A stretch of 57,060 bases of DNA from Cellvibrio sp. UBA7671 (GTDB lineage: Bacteria; Pseudomonadota; Gammaproteobacteria; Pseudomonadales; Cellvibrionaceae), in the NCBI GenBank assembly GCA_002483145.1, contig DLHJ01000006.1, positions 1 to 57,060 of the forward strand, written 5' to 3'. A program made the translations under genes and the position numbers. Of the stretch, positions 20,989 to 30,676 are shown piece by piece. The first letter of the stretch is position 1. Each line of letters opens with the position of its first letter. Below the pieces are notes generated by a model. That model worked only from the letters and a program-made list of their open reading frames with translations. It did no database searches and was not told the origin of the DNA.

Positions 20989-21252
20989 CTTAGTGCTCCT
21001 ATAGATAAATTCTGGACAAAACTGTCGAAAAGGGGTCGGGATTCAAGGACGCGACATTATGCCGTGTTCGATTCGTTTGTCAACCGAAGAAACTGCGATC
21101 TTTTACTGGAGTTGGTACTTGGCGGGGCGCAGGCCTACTTTGTCCCGCTTGTTTATTCGTCGGTGTTACCGCTTGGAGCAACATGCCGTAAAACCCGCGG
21201 CCGTGTTAGTATTCGTGGTTATAAATACGCCAAAAGCTCAGGGGATTTTTGC

Positions 21253-23094
21253 GTGGCCGACAACGAAGAATCGAATAAGACCAGCCTCAGGGCCTCGGTT
21301 GAAGAGGGGGAAACACGCGTTGCACTGGGGCGCCCGGAACCCTCGTTGCCGGTCGCCGATACAGCTTACGCCACTCAATTCACCCAATATAGTGCTCCAC
21401 ACAATCACTCGACCGGGTTTGCGCAAGCCCGCGAACTGGTTAAGCAATCCCAAAGTGGTAAAGGCAGGCTGCTGAAAAAGCGTTTCCTGTTAGAAGATGT
21501 GCTGGGGCACGGCGGTATGGGGACCGTCTACAAGACCAAAGATTTGCGCAAAGTCGAAGCAGAAGACCCCAATCCGTATATCGCCACCAAGATCCTCAAC
21601 CAAGATTTCAAAGATCACCCCGACGCGTTTGTAACGCTGCAGCAGGAAACGGCTAAATCCCAGACGCTCGCACATCCAAATATAGTTACGGTGCACGATT
21701 TTGATCGCGAAGGCGACACGCTGTTCATGACCATGGAGCTGCTCGAAGGGCAGCCGCTGGATCAACTCATTAAAGCGCAGCGCAGTAAGGGCTTGCCCAA
21801 AGAACAAGTGTGGCAAATAGCTAAAGACCTTTGTGCCGCCCTGGCTTATGCACACCAGCGCCAATTAATTCATGCGGATTTCAAACCCGGCAACGTGTTT
21901 GTGAACACCGACGGTAGCGCCAAGGTGTTGGATTTTGGCATCGCCCGCGCAGCCTCGAAGGAGGCGCAAAAACACAAGTTTGATGCTGGGCAATTGGGCG
22001 CGCTGACGCCGGCCTATGCCACTATCGAAATGGTAAAAGATGAGCCACTCGGCTTTAGCGATGATGTCTACGCGCTCGCCTGTGTGATTTATGAGATGTT
22101 GGCTGGGCGCCATCCTTACAATAATCGTTCCGCACTAGAGGCATACCAGCAAAAACTGGTACCTAAACGTTTGGATAAACTCAGCGCGCGTGAGTGGAAA
22201 GCCTTGAGTCATGCGCTCGCGCTCACCAAAGCTGAGCGCACTGCGAGCATTACGCAATTTGTCGATGAGTTATTTCCCCGTCGCAACCCCTTGATGTTGA
22301 CTGCCGCAGTGGGGATGGCGTTGGTGTCGCTTGCAGGTGCGGCCTGGTTTGGCTTTAGCCAGCATCAGGCGCAGCAAAAAGTGCAGGCAACCATCGCCGA
22401 AAAAATAACACAAGCGCAAAGCTGTTTTGCAACTCAGGATTTTGCCTGCGCAATTGAACAGAGTTTGGTGGCGACCAATCTTGCCCCCGATAATTCTGTG
22501 GCGCGCCAGTTATTGTTGGCCGCCCAGCAAGCGCAAGAGCAGCGTCTTCAAGACGATAAAATCGGCGAACTGATTGGTGAGGCGCAGCGGTGTTTACTAC
22601 AACAGGATTTGGAGTGTGCGGCTGTGTATTTGCAAAAAGCCGAGGCAGTCGGTGTGCACAATTCGCAAGTGGTCAGTTTTCATGAGGCGTTAAGTGTGGC
22701 GCGCGCGCAGCAGGCGCAATCGGCGACACAAAAGCAGGCGGAGATAGATGATGCCTTGGCGCGGGCTAACAGTTGTTTCACCGCCAGGGATTATACGTGT
22801 ACAGTTAATTCAGTTGACCGCATTTTGGCGTTGGACCCAGCACATGCCGAAGCCATCGCACTGAAGCAAAAAATCGCTTCGGCCAAGGAGCAGGAAGGTG
22901 CGTTAGCCGGAAAAGTCAGCCGCTTGATGGTCGATGCCGAAAACTGCATGGCTAAGAAAAATTATTCCTGCGCTATCGCCAAAGCAGAATCGGTGCTGGA
23001 ATTGGATGCGGGCTACCAACTGGCGACAAGTTTAAAAAGCCGCGCACAGGAAACCCAGCGCAAGCTAAAAGAAACAGGGTTTACCATTAAATAA
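21253..23094 (+). CDS. Transmembrane Ser/Thr protein kinase with four periplasmic CX7C repeats
   Basis: A Hanks-type kinase domain covers about residues 78-340: glycine loop GHGGMGTVYK, ATP-binding Lys in IATKIL (about 112), catalytic HADFKPGN (about 205), DFG (about 226) and DVYALACVIYEMLAGRHPY. One membrane segment follows (about 348-368). The outer part has four TPR-like repeats, each with two cysteines spaced identically: SCFATQDFAC, RCLLQQDLEC, SCFTARDYTC and NCMAKKNYSC. All kinase catalytic residues are present, so it should phosphorylate cytoplasmic targets in response to a periplasmic signal. The start is GTG 21253 (AGGGG about nine bases upstream), leaving 613 residues; an upstream in-frame extension to 21064 looks non-coding. 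Followed closely by a secreted protein. Confidence 0.9.
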   Translation: MADNEESNKTSLRASVEEGETRVALGRPEPSLPVADTAYATQFTQYSAPHNHSTGFAQARELVKQSQSGKGRLLKKRFLLEDVLGHGGMGTVYKTKDLRKVEAEDPNPYIATKILNQDFKDHPDAFVTLQQETAKSQTLAHPNIVTVHDFDREGDTLFMTMELLEGQPLDQLIKAQRSKGLPKEQVWQIAKDLCAALAYAHQRQLIHADFKPGNVFVNTDGSAKVLDFGIARAASKEAQKHKFDAGQLGALTPAYATIEMVKDEPLGFSDDVYALACVIYEMLAGRHPYNNRSALEAYQQKLVPKRLDKLSAREWKALSHALALTKAERTASITQFVDELFPRRNPLMLTAAVGMALVSLAGAAWFGFSQHQAQQKVQATIAEKITQAQSCFATQDFACAIEQSLVATNLAPDNSVARQLLLAAQQAQEQRLQDDKIGELIGEAQRCLLQQDLECAAVYLQKAEAVGVHNSQVVSFHEALSVARAQQAQSATQKQAEIDDALARANSCFTARDYTCTVNSVDRILALDPAHAEAIALKQKIASAKEQEGALAGKVSRLMVDAENCMAKKNYSCAIAKAESVLELDAGYQLATSLKSRAQETQRKLKETGFTIK

Positions 23095-23129: not shown

Positions 23130-23810
23130 ATGAAAACCAAAGCGATAATCTTTATGTTGTTTTGTGTCTTGGTTAATCCGGCGCAGGCATTTAGTTTGGG
23201 CGATCTGAAAGACAATATTGACCGCTCGCATAAATGTAAAAGTGGTGACCAGGGTTGTAAAAATCGCGAGCATCTTAAAGCGGTTGCGCGTGTGGCGGCG
23301 GTTGCTGTTGCGGTGACAGTACTCACTAAAATGATTATCAAGCATCGCTCCGAGCGCATTGCTAAAGAAGAGCAAGTTGCCGAGGAATATAAAGCCCAAA
23401 ATAATAACTTGCCGACCGAACCTACCGCGACTGAATACACCACCAAAACCCTTCCCGGCAACGTGGTTGAGCCTGGCAAAGAGGTGATTATCCAATCCGA
23501 TATAGTGGTAGTGCCGGGCACTAAACAAAAAACAGCATTGATCGAAGAAAGCATTGTTATTTATGACAATGAAGACAACACCAAAGAGTTAAAAAACTTC
23601 ACCAAACCGGTCAATGAAAAAACTAAAAAAGGTGGGCGCTACCAAAATGAATTTTCATTTACCTTGCCTGAAGGTTTGCCGCAGGGGGTATATCCGATTA
23701 AAACGGAATTGCTGCTCAATGGTAAGGTGGTGGATACATCAAACAACGATATTCAATTGGTCTTACATGTCAATGAGCTGGGCGCAATGCAATTGTTGGC
23801 GATGAATTAG
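23130..23810 (+). CDS. Secreted or membrane-anchored protein, partner of the kinase gene
   Basis: The 226-residue protein has a signal peptide (about 1-20, ending AQA). The mature N-terminus contains a CX6C pair (KCKSGDQGC), a hydrophobic helix (about 48-66) and a short charged stretch. From about residue 100 on, a beta-rich domain of Ig-like character follows (alternating hydrophobic strands such as EVIIQSDIVVV and GVYPIKTELLLNGKVV). I do not recognise the family. The start lies 35 bases after the kinase stop, so cotranscription is very likely. The protein could be the ligand, sensor partner or envelope target of the kinase (inference). Confidence 0.75.
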   Translation: MKTKAIIFMLFCVLVNPAQAFSLGDLKDNIDRSHKCKSGDQGCKNREHLKAVARVAAVAVAVTVLTKMIIKHRSERIAKEEQVAEEYKAQNNNLPTEPTATEYTTKTLPGNVVEPGKEVIIQSDIVVVPGTKQKTALIEESIVIYDNEDNTKELKNFTKPVNEKTKKGGRYQNEFSFTLPEGLPQGVYPIKTELLLNGKVVDTSNNDIQLVLHVNELGAMQLLAMN

Positions 23811-23889: not shown

Positions 23890-24771
23890 CTATTTGTTGG
23901 CATTAAAAAATGGCAAGGTGCCGTTGGGCAGCATGGTTTTTGGTAACTGTCCGTCCCATTTTTCTGCCTTGGTCAATTCGATCAAATTTTGGTTTTGCGC
24001 CAATGCTTCCGCGCGGCTTTTAATTGCAGAGGCTTCCGCATCACCTTTTATCCGAATGCTTTCCGCCTCGGCTTTGGAGCGTGCAAGTTGTGAATCTGCC
24101 TCGGCCTGTGCTTTGGTCACTGCAATTTGCGCACTCACACGCTCTTTTTCCAAGTTTTGTTTTTGCGTCTGTACCTCCACCTCTGCGCGCATACGGTCTT
24201 CAACCGATTTTTCATAGGCCGCGCTGAAATCGATATTTTCAATCTGCACCGAATTGATCACTATAGGGCCGTTAATAGATTTGGTGATGGCATCGGTGAC
24301 ATCGATACCGAATTTAACCCGCTCTTGCACCACCGAGATGGCGGTGTATTTACCGAAAATATTTTCCACTTGTGTCGGCACTTGGCGATCTACAAGGCGC
24401 GCGATCATTGAATCGATACTTTTGAAGTTTTCATACACTTCTTCCACTCTATCTGCAGGGACACTGAAGGTGACTGAGGCGCGGATGGTGGCCGGTTGTT
24501 GGTCGCGGCTGTAGGCCTGTAATTCTTGATAGCTTGCCGTGTGTGTTTGGGTGGATATTTTTACCACTGAATCGATAAGGGGAATTTTAAAGCCCAAACC
24601 CGGTGCTGCAGTGCCGATGATTTTGCCGTTGCGCAAATGTACGCCGCGCTCGCCCTGGTCAACGGTGTACCAGCTGCCATAAAGCACGGTGATAAGAAAA
24701 AGTATAACAATCGCGGGAATAATTTTGCCCAAGCTGATTGGGTTGGGTGAACTGAAATCGGCTTTTAACAT
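23890..24771 (-). CDS. SPFH / prohibitin-family membrane protein
   Basis: The 293-residue protein has an N-terminal membrane segment (about 17-35), then an SPFH (band 7) domain (about 38-200: TVDQGERGVHLRNGKI, GLGFKIPLIDSV, YSRDQQPATIRASVTFSV), then a long charged coiled coil (about 200-265) ending in a conserved LPNGTLPFFN tail. Such proteins form ring-like assemblies in membrane microdomains and modulate membrane proteases or scaffold complexes. It is convergent with the kinase pair and adjacent to murU on the same strand, 36 bases downstream. Confidence 0.88.
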   Translation of the reverse strand: MLKADFSSPNPISLGKIIPAIVILFLITVLYGSWYTVDQGERGVHLRNGKIIGTAAPGLGFKIPLIDSVVKISTQTHTASYQELQAYSRDQQPATIRASVTFSVPADRVEEVYENFKSIDSMIARLVDRQVPTQVENIFGKYTAISVVQERVKFGIDVTDAITKSINGPIVINSVQIENIDFSAAYEKSVEDRMRAEVEVQTQKQNLEKERVSAQIAVTKAQAEADSQLARSKAEAESIRIKGDAEASAIKSRAEALAQNQNLIELTKAEKWDGQLPKTMLPNGTLPFFNANK

Positions 24772-24807
24772 GATGCGTCCTTTTTGTGTTGTGGTGGTAG
24801 AGATTGA

Positions 24808-25554
24808 TTATTTATGTTCGGTGTTGATTAATTTGGCTGACAGATAATCTTCCAGTAGGTGTAATCGCACCGGGGTTCCAACATCACTCCAGTGTCCGCG
24901 ATGAACTTGTCCTGTGATTTGCTCGTTGCTTATTGCGCGGCGTAACACTTCTACCAAGGGGAATTTTTGGCGTTTATCCGGGTAGGCGGCGATTAATTCC
25001 GGTTTGAGCAAACTGATACCACCAAAAGTGAATCGCTGTTGGGCTATTTTTTTGGGGCCATCAGGTTTTTCGGGATCATTAAGTAATAGCCCGCTACTGG
25101 CAAGTGCAAAATCACCCTGCGGATGAAATTCCGGATTAGGTACCAGCAGCAAATGCCCCAGCTGGTTTTGCGACAATATATTTTCAGCAATAGGCTGGTG
25201 GATAAATTGTGCAAACTCCAGATCGCACCAGACATCGCCATTAATCAATAAAAAAGGTTCTTCACCGAGTAAATCCAACGCATGCAAAATAGCGCCGCCG
25301 GTTTCCAGTGGCTCGGGCTCGGTGGAATAGCTGATCTTTAATCCAAATTGTTGGCCATCACCCAAGTGCGAGCGAATTTTTTCGCCTAGATAGGCGAGGT
25401 TGATAATGACTTCGCGAATACCCGCGCGCTGCAGGTTTTCCAAATGGTATTCAATCAGCGGTTTGCCACCCGCACACAGCAGCGGTTTGGGGGTGTGATA
25501 GGTGAGTGGGCGCATGCGATTGCCGAGCCCGGCAGCGAGGATCATGGCTTTCAT
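24808..25554 (-). CDS. murU: N-acetylmuramate alpha-1-phosphate uridylyltransferase
   Basis: The 248-residue nucleotidyltransferase carries the signature LAAGLGNRMRPLT (about 6-18), KPLIEYHLENL, and the Mg-binding LINGDVWCD. Together with the kinase encoded just upstream it matches the Pseudomonas AmgK-MurU pair: MurU converts MurNAc-1-phosphate and UTP to UDP-MurNAc, bypassing de novo synthesis. The start ATG overlaps the amgK stop (25551-25554, ATGA), showing translational coupling. The position next to lptD matches the Pseudomonas arrangement. Confidence 0.9.
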   Translation of the reverse strand: MKAMILAAGLGNRMRPLTYHTPKPLLCAGGKPLIEYHLENLQRAGIREVIINLAYLGEKIRSHLGDGQQFGLKISYSTEPEPLETGGAILHALDLLGEEPFLLINGDVWCDLEFAQFIHQPIAENILSQNQLGHLLLVPNPEFHPQGDFALASSGLLLNDPEKPDGPKKIAQQRFTFGGISLLKPELIAAYPDKRQKFPLVEVLRRAISNEQITGQVHRGHWSDVGTPVRLHLLEDYLSAKLINTEHK

Positions 25555-26621
25555 TGGTCGCCTGCTGATTGATAGTCCCGATACCAGGATTGTTGTTGCG
25601 CGAGTGGTAATAAAGTCTGTTTAAACCAAGTCACAAAGGCTTTTAGTTCCAGATATTGTTCGGCGACTTCCAGTGTATAGCGAATCACTAGCGGCAAATC
25701 ATTCAGGTAGCCGGTTTTGCCATCGCGCAGATTTAAACGTGCAAAAATACCGAGCACTTTTATATGGCGCTGTAAGCCGAGCCAGTTAAACCAGCGCAGG
25801 AATTCCGTTTCACTGACATCCGGAATAATGTTTGCGCTGATTGCCTGTTGACGATAATCCAAAGCCCAGCCTGTTACCTTTTCCGCTGGCCAGTGCAGAT
25901 AGCAGTCGCGCAACAGCGAGACCAGATCGTAAGTCACGCCGCCCCAAAGCGCGCCTTGGAAATCAATTACACCAAGCGCGTTATCATCCAGCAATAAAAG
26001 ATTGCGCGAATGGTAGTCGCGATGCACAAACGTTTGCGGTTGCGCGAGTGCATTGTCCTCCAGCCGGATAAATAATTCATCGAGCAATTTTTTCTCTGCA
26101 GTAGCGAGTGGATGACCGAGCAGTTTACCGGCAAACCATTCGCTGAAAATTTCCAGCTCGCGGTGCAAAAGTGCGCGGTCGTAACGCGGGATTAGTGCGG
26201 CATCATCCTGAATGTGCTGAAGCTGCAGCAGGGTGCTGAGCGCCATTTGATAGAGGTCATCGACGTTACCGGTGTTCACTGCGCGGAAGAACAAGCGGTC
26301 GCCCATATCTTCTACCAGCAAAAAGCCCTGGTTTGCATCCGCGGTGGCAATACGCGGGCTGCGCACGCCTTGTTGCTCGATAAGGCGGGCGATAGCGAGA
26401 AACTGGTGGGTGTCTTCGCTGGCGGGCGGTGCATCGACTGCCAGCCATTGCGATGGGGTTTGATAGCGGAAGTAGCGGCGAAACCCCGCATCACTGCCCA
26501 GGCTAAACAGTTCTATCGGGTGTTCCGCGAAAGATGTTTGCTGTGTGACCCAGTTGGTGAGGGCTAACTTTCGGGTATCGATTGGCGCGCTGGGGCTGTC
26601 TCTGGTGTGATTGGTGGTCAT
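25551..26621 (-). CDS. amgK: N-acetylmuramate / N-acetylglucosamine kinase
   Basis: A 356-residue phosphotransferase of the aminoglycoside phosphotransferase fold. It shows the ATP-site FLLVEDMGDRLF hinge, catalytic loop FVHRDYHSRNLL (Asp about 209) and metal-binding VIDFQGALWGG. AmgK phosphorylates MurNAc (and GlcNAc) at C1, the step before MurU. The gene is divergent from lptD across about 180 bases. With anmK elsewhere in this window, most of the anhydro-MurNAc recycling pathway is represented; the MurNAc-6-phosphate phosphatase (MupP) is not. Confidence 0.9.
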   Translation of the reverse strand: MTTNHTRDSPSAPIDTRKLALTNWVTQQTSFAEHPIELFSLGSDAGFRRYFRYQTPSQWLAVDAPPASEDTHQFLAIARLIEQQGVRSPRIATADANQGFLLVEDMGDRLFFRAVNTGNVDDLYQMALSTLLQLQHIQDDAALIPRYDRALLHRELEIFSEWFAGKLLGHPLATAEKKLLDELFIRLEDNALAQPQTFVHRDYHSRNLLLLDDNALGVIDFQGALWGGVTYDLVSLLRDCYLHWPAEKVTGWALDYRQQAISANIIPDVSETEFLRWFNWLGLQRHIKVLGIFARLNLRDGKTGYLNDLPLVIRYTLEVAEQYLELKAFVTWFKQTLLPLAQQQSWYRDYQSAGDQ

Positions 26622-26800
26622 GCGGGATCCGGCGTTATGTCAATTATTAGTTGGGCGTTGGGTGTGGGTGCCTCAGTGGTCGGATTCTACCCCAGTCAGG
26701 TGATTTCCCCCAATTCATTCCCAGTACAGACGGTTTACAGTAGAATCGCCTCAATTTTTCGGCGGCATATGTATGGCGCGCCTATTTGAGACCGCGGTTA

Positions 26801-29341
26801 ATGGCTCCAACCCAGAATCATTCCAAACAGAATCTGCGCAATAAATTCCTTCGCTCCCGCCTAGCCCTGTGTGTTGCAGCCCAGTGCGCGGGGATTTTGC
26901 TATTGTCTGTGCCTTTAACCTGGGCTGATGACACTGCATCGGCGCCTAAAAAAGACCCCAACGAGCAGCTGCGCGAATTGGATTGGGTGCCCATGGAAGA
27001 GCTTACCCCGGAGCAGAAAGCGCAGGTGCCCACCGCCTGTTGTGGTGCCTATGTGGCGCCGCCGCGCGACGATGTTGAGTCGGAGATGGATCCGGAAAAA
27101 GCCAATATCTTTGGTACCGCCGATTACTCGGAATCCGAAAAGCAAACCAAATTCATCATGCGCGACGATGTGCGCCTGACCCAAGGGCGCCGCTCGTTCC
27201 GCGCGGATACCTTCACCTTTGATAAAACTACGCGAGAAGCGGAGCTGGATGGTGACATCCAGGTGCGCGAGCCGGGAGTATTGTTGCGTGCTGACAAAGC
27301 TTATGTCGATACCAACACCGGCAACGCCCGTTTGGATAACGCCCGTTTTGTGCTCTATGAAACCCGTGTGCGCGGTCGCGCGGAGAGTTTGGAAAAATTT
27401 GGCGATGCTGTTATCAGCCTTGATCAGGGTACATTTACCAGCTGCGAGCCGGGCGATAATACCTGGCTGATCAAAGGCTCGAATATCACCCTGCACAACG
27501 ATAAACATTACGGCACGGCTAAACATATGCGCTTGCATATCAAAGATGTGCCAGTTGTCTATGCGCCTTATTTTCGTTTTCCGGTAGGGCCAGACCGTCT
27601 GACAGGCTTTTTGTTTCCCTCGATCGGCTTTGATGAGAGCGATGGTATCGGCGAATTTTCTGCGCCCTTTTATTGGAATATCGCCCCTAATTACGATGCC
27701 ACTATTACGCCGCGCTACCTCGCCGAACACGGTTATATGCTCGCGACTGAGCTGCGCCACAAATCCGAATTGTTTGATAGTGAGTTGAGCGGCAGCGCGC
27801 TGAATAACGATCGCAGCGGAGATACCGGCCGCGACGACGATGAGATCAACCCACAGTATCTCGGCAAAGATCGCTGGCAGTACAACCTGGTGCAAACCGG
27901 CGGGCGCAACCAGCCTTGGTCAACTGAAATTGATTACACCGATGTCAGTGATACCGACTACATCCGCGATGTAGACGGCAGTGCCGTGGATTTAAATCGC
28001 CAGGCTTACATCCGCCAGCGCGCAGCCGCTGGTTACAACAGCGAGCATTGGCAACTGGGCGCCAAAGCGGAAGAGTTTCGTTTGTTGACCAGCACGCAAT
28101 TACCTTATCGCGAATTGCCGCGTCTGCATGCCGATGGTCAATACCGGGTGAATGACTGGCTGGTCGAGCTGGATAATGAATATACTCACTTTGGTATGAA
28201 CCGCTACTTTGAGGGCGATGAGGCCAACCTTATTGTTGGCGAGCGTTTGCGCACCAATTACAAACTGAGTTGGGATAAAGAATACACCGCTGGTTATGTA
28301 AAACCGGGCGTGGGTTTGAAAACCCTTGGCTATGAATTAGAAGCCACTAACCTGCGCACTGATGCGGAAAGCAGCCAACAATTCACTGCCCCGCAAGGCT
28401 CGCTTGATATGGGGCTGTATTTTGAGCGCGACAAAGCCTTATTTGGTGATGCCTTTACCCAGACTCTGGAGCCGCGCGCGTTTTATCTCTACCGCGATTA
28501 CGAAAATCAGGATTCGCTCTACGCTCTCACCTCTGATGCCAGCTATGTCAACTTTGACACATCGGATCTGATCTTCACCTACGAGCAGTTGTTTCGTGAC
28601 TCGCGCTTCTCTGGTGGCGACCGTATCGATGACACCAATCATCTCGCATTGGGCCTTACCAGCCGCTTCGTGGAATCCGACACCGGCGTTGAGCGCTTGC
28701 GCCTGAGTATTGGTCAGATCACCTATTTTGAAGACCGTGAAGTCAGCATCCTCAATGACGATGACGCCTATGCCAATACCCGTACCAGCTCGGCAGTGGC
28801 AGGGCAGGCAAGTACTCTGATTGGCGATCACCTGCGCATCAGCAGCGATGTACTTTATGATCACCAACAAGAGCAGGTGAACACCGTCAGCACCAGCTTG
28901 AATTATATGGATGAGCAGTACCGGATCCTGAACCTTGGCTATCGCTACAGCCGCGATCCGGTATCGCTCAGCCCACTGGAAACCACACCGAACATCGGTG
29001 AAACCCTGAACCAGATAGATGTCACCACACTCTGGCCAGTTTCCAGTCAATGGTCAGTAATTGCCCGCGCCAACTACGATTTTACGTACAATGCGGAACT
29101 CGACACCTTTGCCGGGCTCGAATACACCGATTGCTGCTACCGCATCCGCGTGCTAGCGCGGCAGTGGGTGGATTTCGATTTTAGTCCCGACTTTATGGAA
29201 AACCTCAGCAGCGACGATTATGACCGCGGTGTGTTTATCGAAGTGCAATTGCGCGGCTTCGGCAGCTTGAGTCAACGTATTAGTAACCTGCTCGACAAAG
29301 CTATGTTTGGCTACGGCGAGCGTGAAGCATCTCTACAATAA
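26801..29341 (+). CDS. lptD: LPS-assembly outer-membrane protein LptD
   Basis: The protein has a signal region (about 15-45, ending TWA), an OstA/LptA-like jelly-roll domain (about 110-230: FIMRDDVRLTQGRRSFRADTFTFD, REAELDGDI) and a large beta-barrel domain. Cysteines are placed as in LptD: an ACC near residue 80, SCEPG in the periplasmic domain and a DCC pair in the barrel (DCCYRIRVL), which form the inter-domain disulfides. It inserts LPS into the outer leaflet with LptE. ATG 26801 was chosen; an in-frame TTG at 26786 would add five residues. The length, 846 residues, is normal. It heads the surA-pdxA-rsmA-apaG-apaH run. Confidence 0.95.
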   Translation: MAPTQNHSKQNLRNKFLRSRLALCVAAQCAGILLLSVPLTWADDTASAPKKDPNEQLRELDWVPMEELTPEQKAQVPTACCGAYVAPPRDDVESEMDPEKANIFGTADYSESEKQTKFIMRDDVRLTQGRRSFRADTFTFDKTTREAELDGDIQVREPGVLLRADKAYVDTNTGNARLDNARFVLYETRVRGRAESLEKFGDAVISLDQGTFTSCEPGDNTWLIKGSNITLHNDKHYGTAKHMRLHIKDVPVVYAPYFRFPVGPDRLTGFLFPSIGFDESDGIGEFSAPFYWNIAPNYDATITPRYLAEHGYMLATELRHKSELFDSELSGSALNNDRSGDTGRDDDEINPQYLGKDRWQYNLVQTGGRNQPWSTEIDYTDVSDTDYIRDVDGSAVDLNRQAYIRQRAAAGYNSEHWQLGAKAEEFRLLTSTQLPYRELPRLHADGQYRVNDWLVELDNEYTHFGMNRYFEGDEANLIVGERLRTNYKLSWDKEYTAGYVKPGVGLKTLGYELEATNLRTDAESSQQFTAPQGSLDMGLYFERDKALFGDAFTQTLEPRAFYLYRDYENQDSLYALTSDASYVNFDTSDLIFTYEQLFRDSRFSGGDRIDDTNHLALGLTSRFVESDTGVERLRLSIGQITYFEDREVSILNDDDAYANTRTSSAVAGQASTLIGDHLRISSDVLYDHQQEQVNTVSTSLNYMDEQYRILNLGYRYSRDPVSLSPLETTPNIGETLNQIDVTTLWPVSSQWSVIARANYDFTYNAELDTFAGLEYTDCCYRIRVLARQWVDFDFSPDFMENLSSDDYDRGVFIEVQLRGFGSLSQRISNLLDKAMFGYGEREASLQ

Positions 29342-29356
29342 AACAGTGATTGAATT

Positions 29357-30676
29357 ATGAGTAAGAACCAAAACAAGCCACATTCATTGCATATGGGCTG
29401 GACGCTATTGCTGGGCGGTTTGCTTCTGGCGACCAGCCAGCTCGGCCTGGCCCAAAGCAATGCGGTATCACTGGATCGCGTGGTGGCGATTGTCGATAAA
29501 GATGTGGTACTGCAAAGTGAGTTGGATGATCGCAAAGCATCTATCCTGGAGCGCTTGAAAGGCCAATACCAACAGCTGCCGCCGGAGGATGTGCTCAATA
29601 AACAAATCCTCGAACAATTGATTATTGAACGTATCGAACTGGGCTTGGCCGAGCGTTACGAAATTAAAGTGGATGAGGCGGAAATCGACCAGGCGATTGG
29701 CCGTGTGCTGCAAAAAAATCAAATCACCTTGGCGCAGCTTGAAGCTGATCTAAAAACCCAGGGGTTAAATCTCGATGGTCTGCGCAAACAAATGCGCAAC
29801 GAATTGACCATCAGCCATTTGCAACAAGGTGTTGTGAATAGCCGCATCAAAGTGACCGATCAGGACATTAACAATTTCCTCGCTTCAAGCGACGGCAAAT
29901 TTGCCACCTCACCGGATTTTCATATCGGCCATATTTTAATTGCAGTCTCCAGTAGCGCTGATGCTGACGCGATTGCCGCTGCTGAAAAGCAAGCTAACGA
30001 TATTTATCAAAAACTGCAAAGTGGCAGCGATTTTTCGCAGATGGCGATCAGCTACTCCAACGACCAAGCCGCCCTGCAAGGTGGCGATATCGGCTGGCGT
30101 AAACTCGCGCAATTGCCGGAGCTGTTTGGCAATCAAATGGCGAATTTAGCGGTAGGGCAAGTCTCCAAACCTTTCCGCAGCGGTGCCGGTTTCCATATCC
30201 TTAAAAATATTGAACAGCGCGGCGGCGGCGAGCAATTGGTTGAGCAGACCCATGCGCGCCACATATTGGTAAAGACCTCGGAAATTATGGACGATGCCCA
30301 AGCGCGCCAGAAACTGTTGGATTTAAAAGCGCGGATCGAAAAAGGTGAAGATTTTGGCAAGCTGGCCCGCGAGCATTCAGAAGATACCGGCTCTATGTTG
30401 AGCGGCGGTGATTTGGGTTGGTCTACACCGGGCATGTTTGTACCGGAATTTGAAGAGGCGATGGGCAATACTTCCATAGGTGGCATCACCCGCCCATTCA
30501 AAAGTCAATTTGGCTGGCATATTTTGCAAGTGATCGAGCGTCGCAAAGAAGATATGAGCGATAAAATGAAGCGCAACCAAGCCGCCAACGTATTGCGTTC
30601 ACGTCGCTTTGAGGAAGAATTCCAACTCTGGCTGACACAAATCCGCGAAGAGGCTTACGTCGAAATTAAACTCTAA
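29357..30676 (+). CDS. surA: Periplasmic peptidyl-prolyl isomerase / chaperone SurA
   Basis: The 439-residue protein has a signal peptide (about 1-33, ending LAQS), the N-terminal chaperone domain (VSLDRVVAIVDKDVVLQSELD), then two parvulin-type PPIase domains (about 178-275, IGHILIAV to FHILKNIEQR, and 290-390, ARHILVKTSEI to FGWHILQVIERR), and a C-terminal helix. SurA escorts unfolded outer-membrane proteins, LptD among them, to the Bam complex. The start lies 15 bases after lptD, so the two genes are cotranscribed as in E. coli. Confidence 0.95.
   Translation: MSKNQNKPHSLHMGWTLLLGGLLLATSQLGLAQSNAVSLDRVVAIVDKDVVLQSELDDRKASILERLKGQYQQLPPEDVLNKQILEQLIIERIELGLAERYEIKVDEAEIDQAIGRVLQKNQITLAQLEADLKTQGLNLDGLRKQMRNELTISHLQQGVVNSRIKVTDQDINNFLASSDGKFATSPDFHIGHILIAVSSSADADAIAAAEKQANDIYQKLQSGSDFSQMAISYSNDQAALQGGDIGWRKLAQLPELFGNQMANLAVGQVSKPFRSGAGFHILKNIEQRGGGEQLVEQTHARHILVKTSEIMDDAQARQKLLDLKARIEKGEDFGKLAREHSEDTGSMLSGGDLGWSTPGMFVPEFEEAMGNTSIGGITRPFKSQFGWHILQVIERRKEDMSDKMKRNQAANVLRSRRFEEEFQLWLTQIREEAYVEIKL

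Follow-up and report, generated by a model that had tools for sequence, protein, structure and literature searches.

A Cellvibrio kinase with a predicted periplasmic arm of cysteine-paired TPR hairpins and a co-encoded candidate partner

Receptor kinases with periplasmic tetratricopeptide repeats (TPRs) and helical-repeat proteins braced by disulfide bonds are both already known. In the parts of its description available, PknS (XAC4127) of Xanthomonas citri has its kinase at the cytoplasmic N terminus and its periplasmic TPRs at the C terminus, with one membrane helix in between (PMC13147305); the available text on HcpB and HcpC of Helicobacter presents exported helical-repeat proteins with repeated disulfides (PMC3851747), and that on COA7 of the mitochondrial intermembrane space proposes five disulfides for its five helical repeats (PMC6505684). 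Here we describe a Hanks-type Ser/Thr kinase gene in a 57,060-nucleotide stretch (the window) of Cellvibrio sp. UBA7671 (GCA_002483145.1, contig DLHJ01000006.1, positions 1 to 57,060 of the forward strand), whose product has the layout of PknS, as likened from that description, and two cysteines in each of four C-terminal helical hairpins. On balance we favour the reading that it is a receptor kinase with a disulfide-braced periplasmic TPR arm whose terminal hairpin docks a co-encoded exported partner, and we hold this to be somewhat probable.

The four CX7C peptides named in the original prediction are present in the frame given there, with Cys codons starting at 22423/22447, 22591/22615, 22774/22798 and 22945/22969 (residues 391/399, 447/455, 508/516 and 565/573 of a 613-amino-acid protein counted from a GTG start at 21253). 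All eight cysteines of the arm fall within these pairs. In 300,000 shuffles of the arm residues four pairs never arose, the maximum being three, in 63 shuffles. An alignment (A1) of 22 ectodomains from Cellvibrio and other genera of the family, with identities to the window ectodomain down to 24%, contains 18 invariant columns, of which eight are the cysteines and the remaining ten are A, L, Y, Q, N, E, K and I residues, including one Glu. The original prediction had proposed selection for paired cysteines and named their loss in orthologues as an observation that would overturn it; the four pairs are kept in all 22 aligned relatives, and these comparisons support selection on the paired cysteines. 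The Cys pair of the extra hairpin found in some relatives is likewise kept in 12 of the 12 sequences having that hairpin.

A census of 29 kinases (22 family members, five from other families of the order and two of genome G752) gave 137 pairs, comprising 130 CX7C, six CX8C and one CX12C, the last (L045) being taken from the unpaired-Cys list of a script that had itself paired 136. Identical spacing, as originally proposed, is therefore true of the four window hairpins but not of all relatives. The census detects hairpins through their cysteines, so that a Cys-free hairpin would escape it; alignment A1 is an independent check. A further kinase, in G140, stands outside the census, and its five pairs were read from a record with masked letters. 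Arms have four hairpins in ten cases, five in 18 and seven in one (L088 of G752), each extra hairpin bearing its own Cys pair, and both cysteines are retained when a hairpin turn gains residues. The sole unpaired Cys in the examined stretch of the 29 kinases lies in the membrane segment of L041. None of the 137 pairs has the twin CX9C or CX3C spacing of oxidative-folding substrates. Three hairpins of L088 are very similar to one another and are apparently recent duplications.

An AlphaFold2 model of the window arm and three relatives (mean predicted local distance difference test score, pLDDT, 92.6; predicted template modelling score, pTM, 0.54) places nine helices at arm residues 5-17, 21-34, 39-73, 77-91, 95-134, 138-151, 156-191, 195-208 and 213-232. 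With the Cys pairs at 15/23, 71/79, 132/140 and 189/197 of the same numbering, these helix boundaries put each pair across the three-residue turn of one hairpin in the model, not between repeats. Three helices, each 35-40 residues long, link the short hairpins. In ten of the 50 matches listed, a single unit fits onto a TPR chain at 0.8-1.9 Å over 51-62 residues, with STUB1 chains, for example, at 0.8-0.9 Å over 51-53 residues, and because of these matches we regard the unit as a TPR hairpin. The arm profile, compared with PDB sequences, finds designed TPR proteins as its best matches (best E 2.8e-23). Weighing against a TPR assignment, the window protein reaches the cut-off of no Pfam TPR model; TPR_14 is matched by 17 of the 22 relatives at E <= 0.1. 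Successive pairs are 56-61 residues apart, so the arm is not made of packed 34-residue TPRs, and the long connecting helices make it unlike a compact TPR superhelix; the originally proposed TPR-like repeats thus stand as predicted hairpins, not as a canonical array. Structural matches to the whole arm are poor, and a pTM of this size leaves the relative orientation of the units uncertain. No Sel1 family was found at E 1 for the window protein or arm, nor among the best 25 of 34 families of the 22 relatives.

The mechanical open reading frame begins at 21064 (21064-23094, + strand), and GTG 21253 is the likely translation start because AGGGGA lies just upstream. The Pkinase match and a hydropathy scan, run on the window protein only, bear out the predicted Ser/Thr kinase with one membrane helix and an extracytoplasmic part, a single membrane segment lying between the kinase and the C-terminal region. 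As this segment follows two arginines, the predicted topology has the kinase in the cytoplasm and the last 237 residues in the periplasm. The Arg of the HRD motif is Ala in the window kinase, and Ala or Ser occupies that position in 29 relatives; because of this replacement we assign the kinase to what we take to be the non-RD type, and presume it active. In a motif scan, HxDxKPxN, DFG and the T-loop were found in every one of the 29 kinases, whereas the glycine-loop pattern was missed in five of them and the Lys pattern in 11, where narrow patterns, divergence or contig ends may be responsible. The closest relatives bearing a name are Cellvibrio. The arm has no second copy in the genome, the sole other match having E 0.26. 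Coordinates of all features are given in Table 1.

Table 1. Features of the kinase and partner genes in the window
Feature	Position	Strand	Description
Hanks-type Ser/Thr kinase with putatively stapled TPR arm	21253..23094	+	613 amino acids (likely start); Pfam Pkinase E 1.6e-39
Kinase domain	21493..22206	+	Residues 81-318; LGHGGMG, ATK, HADFKPGN and DFG motifs present
Single hydrophobic segment LMLTAAVGMALVSLAGAAW	22291..22347	+	Residues 347-365, after Arg-Arg; hydropathy scan
Predicted periplasmic arm	22381..23091	+	237 amino acids, nine helices; AlphaFold2 model
Hairpin 1 Cys pair CFATQDFAC	22423..22449	+	Cys in 22/22 relatives
Hairpin 2 Cys pair CLLQQDLEC	22591..22617	+	Cys in 22/22; its counterpart in the alignment is hairpin 3 of relatives with five
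Hairpin 3 Cys pair CFTARDYTC	22774..22800	+	Cys in 22/22 relatives
Hairpin 4 (terminal, best conserved) Cys pair CMAKKNYSC	22945..22971	+	Cys in 22/22; proposed docking unit
Partner protein	23130..23810	+	226 amino acids; signal-peptide-like start, CX6C, hydrophobic segment (residues 52-70), C-terminal beta region

The gene directly downstream encodes the putative partner. Clustering placed this family directly downstream of the kinase in 23 of 27 neighbourhoods, and in three more (L108, L112 and L113) it lies just downstream on the same strand, masked by longer overlapping frames, giving adjacency in 26 of 27 overall; no partner was found in L117, the neighbourhood of the seven-hairpin kinase. 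At three further loci (G019, G258 and G140) the partner is adjacent by coordinates, two of them being cut by contig ends. In a sample of 144 genomes of the family, the arm profile matched 23 and the partner profile the identical 23. All seven genomes with a strong arm match in the order sample (390 genomes) have the partner, and G458 has the partner but no strong arm. Other neighbouring genes vary outside Cellvibrio. In the window, the region beside the pair (23890-30676) holds envelope-type genes, encoding an SPFH protein, a nucleotidyltransferase with an APH-type kinase, and SurA, as well as a gene at 26786-29341 that we take to be LptD-like.

The partner is the best candidate for what the arm holds or senses, and fits the ligand-sensing half of the original prediction. 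Its CX6C is nearly invariant in the 20 sequences of alignment A4 and absent in L115, L112 and L113. Searches with the partner returned no NCBIfam family, nothing above cut-off in Pfam (PF09608 in nine of 20 relatives, best E 0.0052; DUF4625 in one, E 0.00057) and a best E of 1.2 against PDB sequences. Its structure model is weak (pLDDT 65.3), and since Foldseek on this model lists many beta-sandwiches with low template modelling scores (best E 5.9e-05), including Wzt carbohydrate-binding and GH2 glycosidase domains among the best rows, we give the fold no name.

Related terminal hairpins occur near partner relatives without a kinase. The terminal hairpin block, with the C-terminal tail included, shows 53% mean pairwise identity compared with 34-47% for four other blocks, the block edges having been chosen by hand. 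For the hairpins and partners outside kinases, bit scores are quoted, as the hidden Markov model E-values come from very small sets. In L148 (G458) a protein with a C-terminal hairpin that is a weak match (18.2 bits) and has neither Cys is followed by a partner relative (78.0 bits); in L151 (G1157) the C terminus of a zinc-ribbon protein is a single hairpin with CFGNKKYDC (46.4 bits), with a partner relative (120.5 bits) as the next gene but one; and in L152 (Mycetohabitans) a small annotated protein ends in a Cys-free hairpin (32.3 bits) directly followed by a partner relative (95.9 bits). All three partner relatives start like lipoproteins, with a putative lipobox. Because it is the best conserved and lies near partner relatives in these three non-kinase contexts, the terminal hairpin is proposed as the docking site for the partner. 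More tentatively, and with rather less confidence than in the receptor itself, the hairpin and the beta domain of the partner may form a portable envelope coupling that docks different inner-membrane or cytoplasmic machines to a periplasmic or lipid-anchored partner. Such machines would include the stapled kinases, the zinc-ribbon protein of G1157 and the protein beside a tubulin-like gene in G458, and the kinase line would have turned the docking hairpin into a disulfide-stapled arm, with the addition of stapled hairpins setting its length.

The three loci have further features. The G458 cluster (L148:81-5804) comprises a Tubulin_2 gene (E 4.8e-56), the hairpin-ending protein and the partner relative, the last with a weak Gly-zipper match below cut-off. 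In G1157 (L151:1469-8421) four consecutive genes match zinc ribbons, the fourth below cut-off, and one ends in the single stapled hairpin. In L152 (4905-5859) the Cys positions, aligned by eye, read Asp and Lys, a salt bridge perhaps replacing the disulfide.

Stapled kinases were also sought in successively wider samples, of which those of the order, class and phylum overlap. In the order sample the arm was matched at E 0.001 in 33 genomes, seven strongly and 26 weakly (best E 3.3e-8 to 8.5e-4); the loci of 23 of the 26 weak genomes (L063-L085) have no CX7C series in the main frame, L068 and L070 having one CX7C each. The class sample (369 genomes) added to G000 only G752, which has two copies, and G727, whose weak match contains no CX7C, and the phylum sample (388 genomes) added only the terminal hairpin in G1157. 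A plasmid collection gave no match to the arm, and in it the L150 hairpin matched four Mycetohabitans records (best E 6e-3).

A kinase-domain tree was built from 38 rows, 28 stapled and ten without CX7C (L040 was omitted as truncated, and L085 and L087 were not included); two of its outgroup branches are long. A single gain of the staples was considered and rejected, as the tree needs two label changes because L048-L055 nest among stapled kinases. These last kinases lack CX7C pairs yet have three to 12 Cys each. Nested among five-hairpin kinases is a supported clade (98/97) made up of the ten four-hairpin kinases of Cellvibrio, and the four-hairpin form therefore probably arose by loss of hairpin 2. 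L048 and L050-L055 are the closest kinases without CX7C, with a common kinase domain and a different C-terminal region that may resemble a formylglycine-enzyme type domain.

Each hairpin of the arm very probably contains a disulfide staple. The pairs should be oxidised, since they would lie in the periplasm and DsbB- and DsbA-family genes are present in the genome, and the strict pairing, the tolerance of longer turns and the multiplication of stapled units argue for structural bonds. In the proposed mechanism, each TPR hairpin would be locked at its turn by an intra-hairpin disulfide and spaced from the next by a long helix, which would give the arm stiffness and stability under oxidising periplasmic conditions. 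At the far end, the terminal hairpin would dock the exported partner, and binding or loss of the partner would alter the clustering or orientation of arms and with it the activity of the cytoplasmic kinase; the partner may itself report on the envelope. There is precedent in PknS, whose periplasmic TPR region, according to the available part of its description, modulates its phosphorylation (PMC13147305).

Other roles for the arm and its cysteines have to be weighed against this mechanism. The original prediction had raised redox sensing. On such a reading, redox stress or the action of Dsb proteins would break or rearrange one or more disulfides, and this would switch the kinase. A signalling protein with many Cys pairs, in a genome with these Dsb families and beside partners most of which have a CX6C-type pair of their own, invites this reading, which we nevertheless judge quite unlikely, and less likely than structural disulfides. 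Every hairpin has its pair while hairpin number varies from four to seven, as for a structural staple, and the pairs outlast changes of spacing; the arm has no spare thiol; hairpins without either Cys still adjoin partner relatives in L148 and L152; and partners without CX6C occur beside stapled kinases. Redox sensing thus finds no support here. Ligation of a metal by the arm cysteines, in place of bonds with each other, is very improbable. Paired cysteines in register can ligate metal, but each turn offers only two, the arm conserves no His, Asp or additional Cys that could complete a site, and the periplasm favours oxidation.

A different objection accepts the disulfides as aids to folding or stability and places the signal elsewhere: the arm may sense a cell-wall fragment, a secreted peptide or an outer-membrane part, the partner being a chaperone, target or helper instead of the ligand. 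TPRs bind many peptides, the partner has no assigned function, and the Wzt and GH2 matches, obtained from its weak model, are in keeping with this idea. It is nonetheless unlikely in our assessment, if less so than redox sensing, as the linkage of partner and terminal hairpin in both kinase and non-kinase contexts fits direct contact better. We therefore retain the stapled receptor docking its neighbour-encoded partner as the favoured reading.

To our knowledge, the ligands of bacterial receptor kinases outside the PASTA class are mostly unknown. The present family offers a candidate ligand next door, a candidate docking unit, removable staples and a variable number of hairpins, and because candidate ligand, docking unit and built-in structural test come together, the question of the ligand becomes directly testable. 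Should the bonds be confirmed, TPRs stapled by a disulfide within each hairpin would also offer a naturally occurring blueprint for stable repeat scaffolds outside the cell.

Compared with the described systems, the original suggestion that no known family has this pattern needs to be narrowed, since the layout of PknS and the disulfide-braced repeats of Hcp proteins are precedents. Resemblance to the PASTA kinases (PknB/Stk1) is confined to the kinase: the best NCBIfam match is the Stk1 model, which covers only residues 71-300 and scores 194.5 bits where the cut-off is 450, and no PASTA repeat was listed among Pfam families for the full protein at E 1. PknS differs, in the available portion of its description, in having 833 residues and three TPRs and in acting on the sigma factor EcfK; that portion mentions no such partner, and the word disulfide is absent from the main text of the paper (PMC13147305). 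A literature search returned no CX7C-stapled TPR kinase by title or abstract, and no description of the kinase-partner pair, among the matches listed, with most subscription papers outside its coverage. COA7, in the text available, has Sel1 repeats with Cys nine or eleven residues apart and is a soluble assembly factor (PMC6505684). HcpB and HcpC, as far as the accessible text describes them, have Sel1-like repeats and no kinase, and their bond links the end of each repeat with the beginning of its successor (PMC3851747), whereas each pair of the window arm lies within one hairpin of the model. It is in this position of the staple, and in the pairing of the kinase with its partner, that the system looks new.
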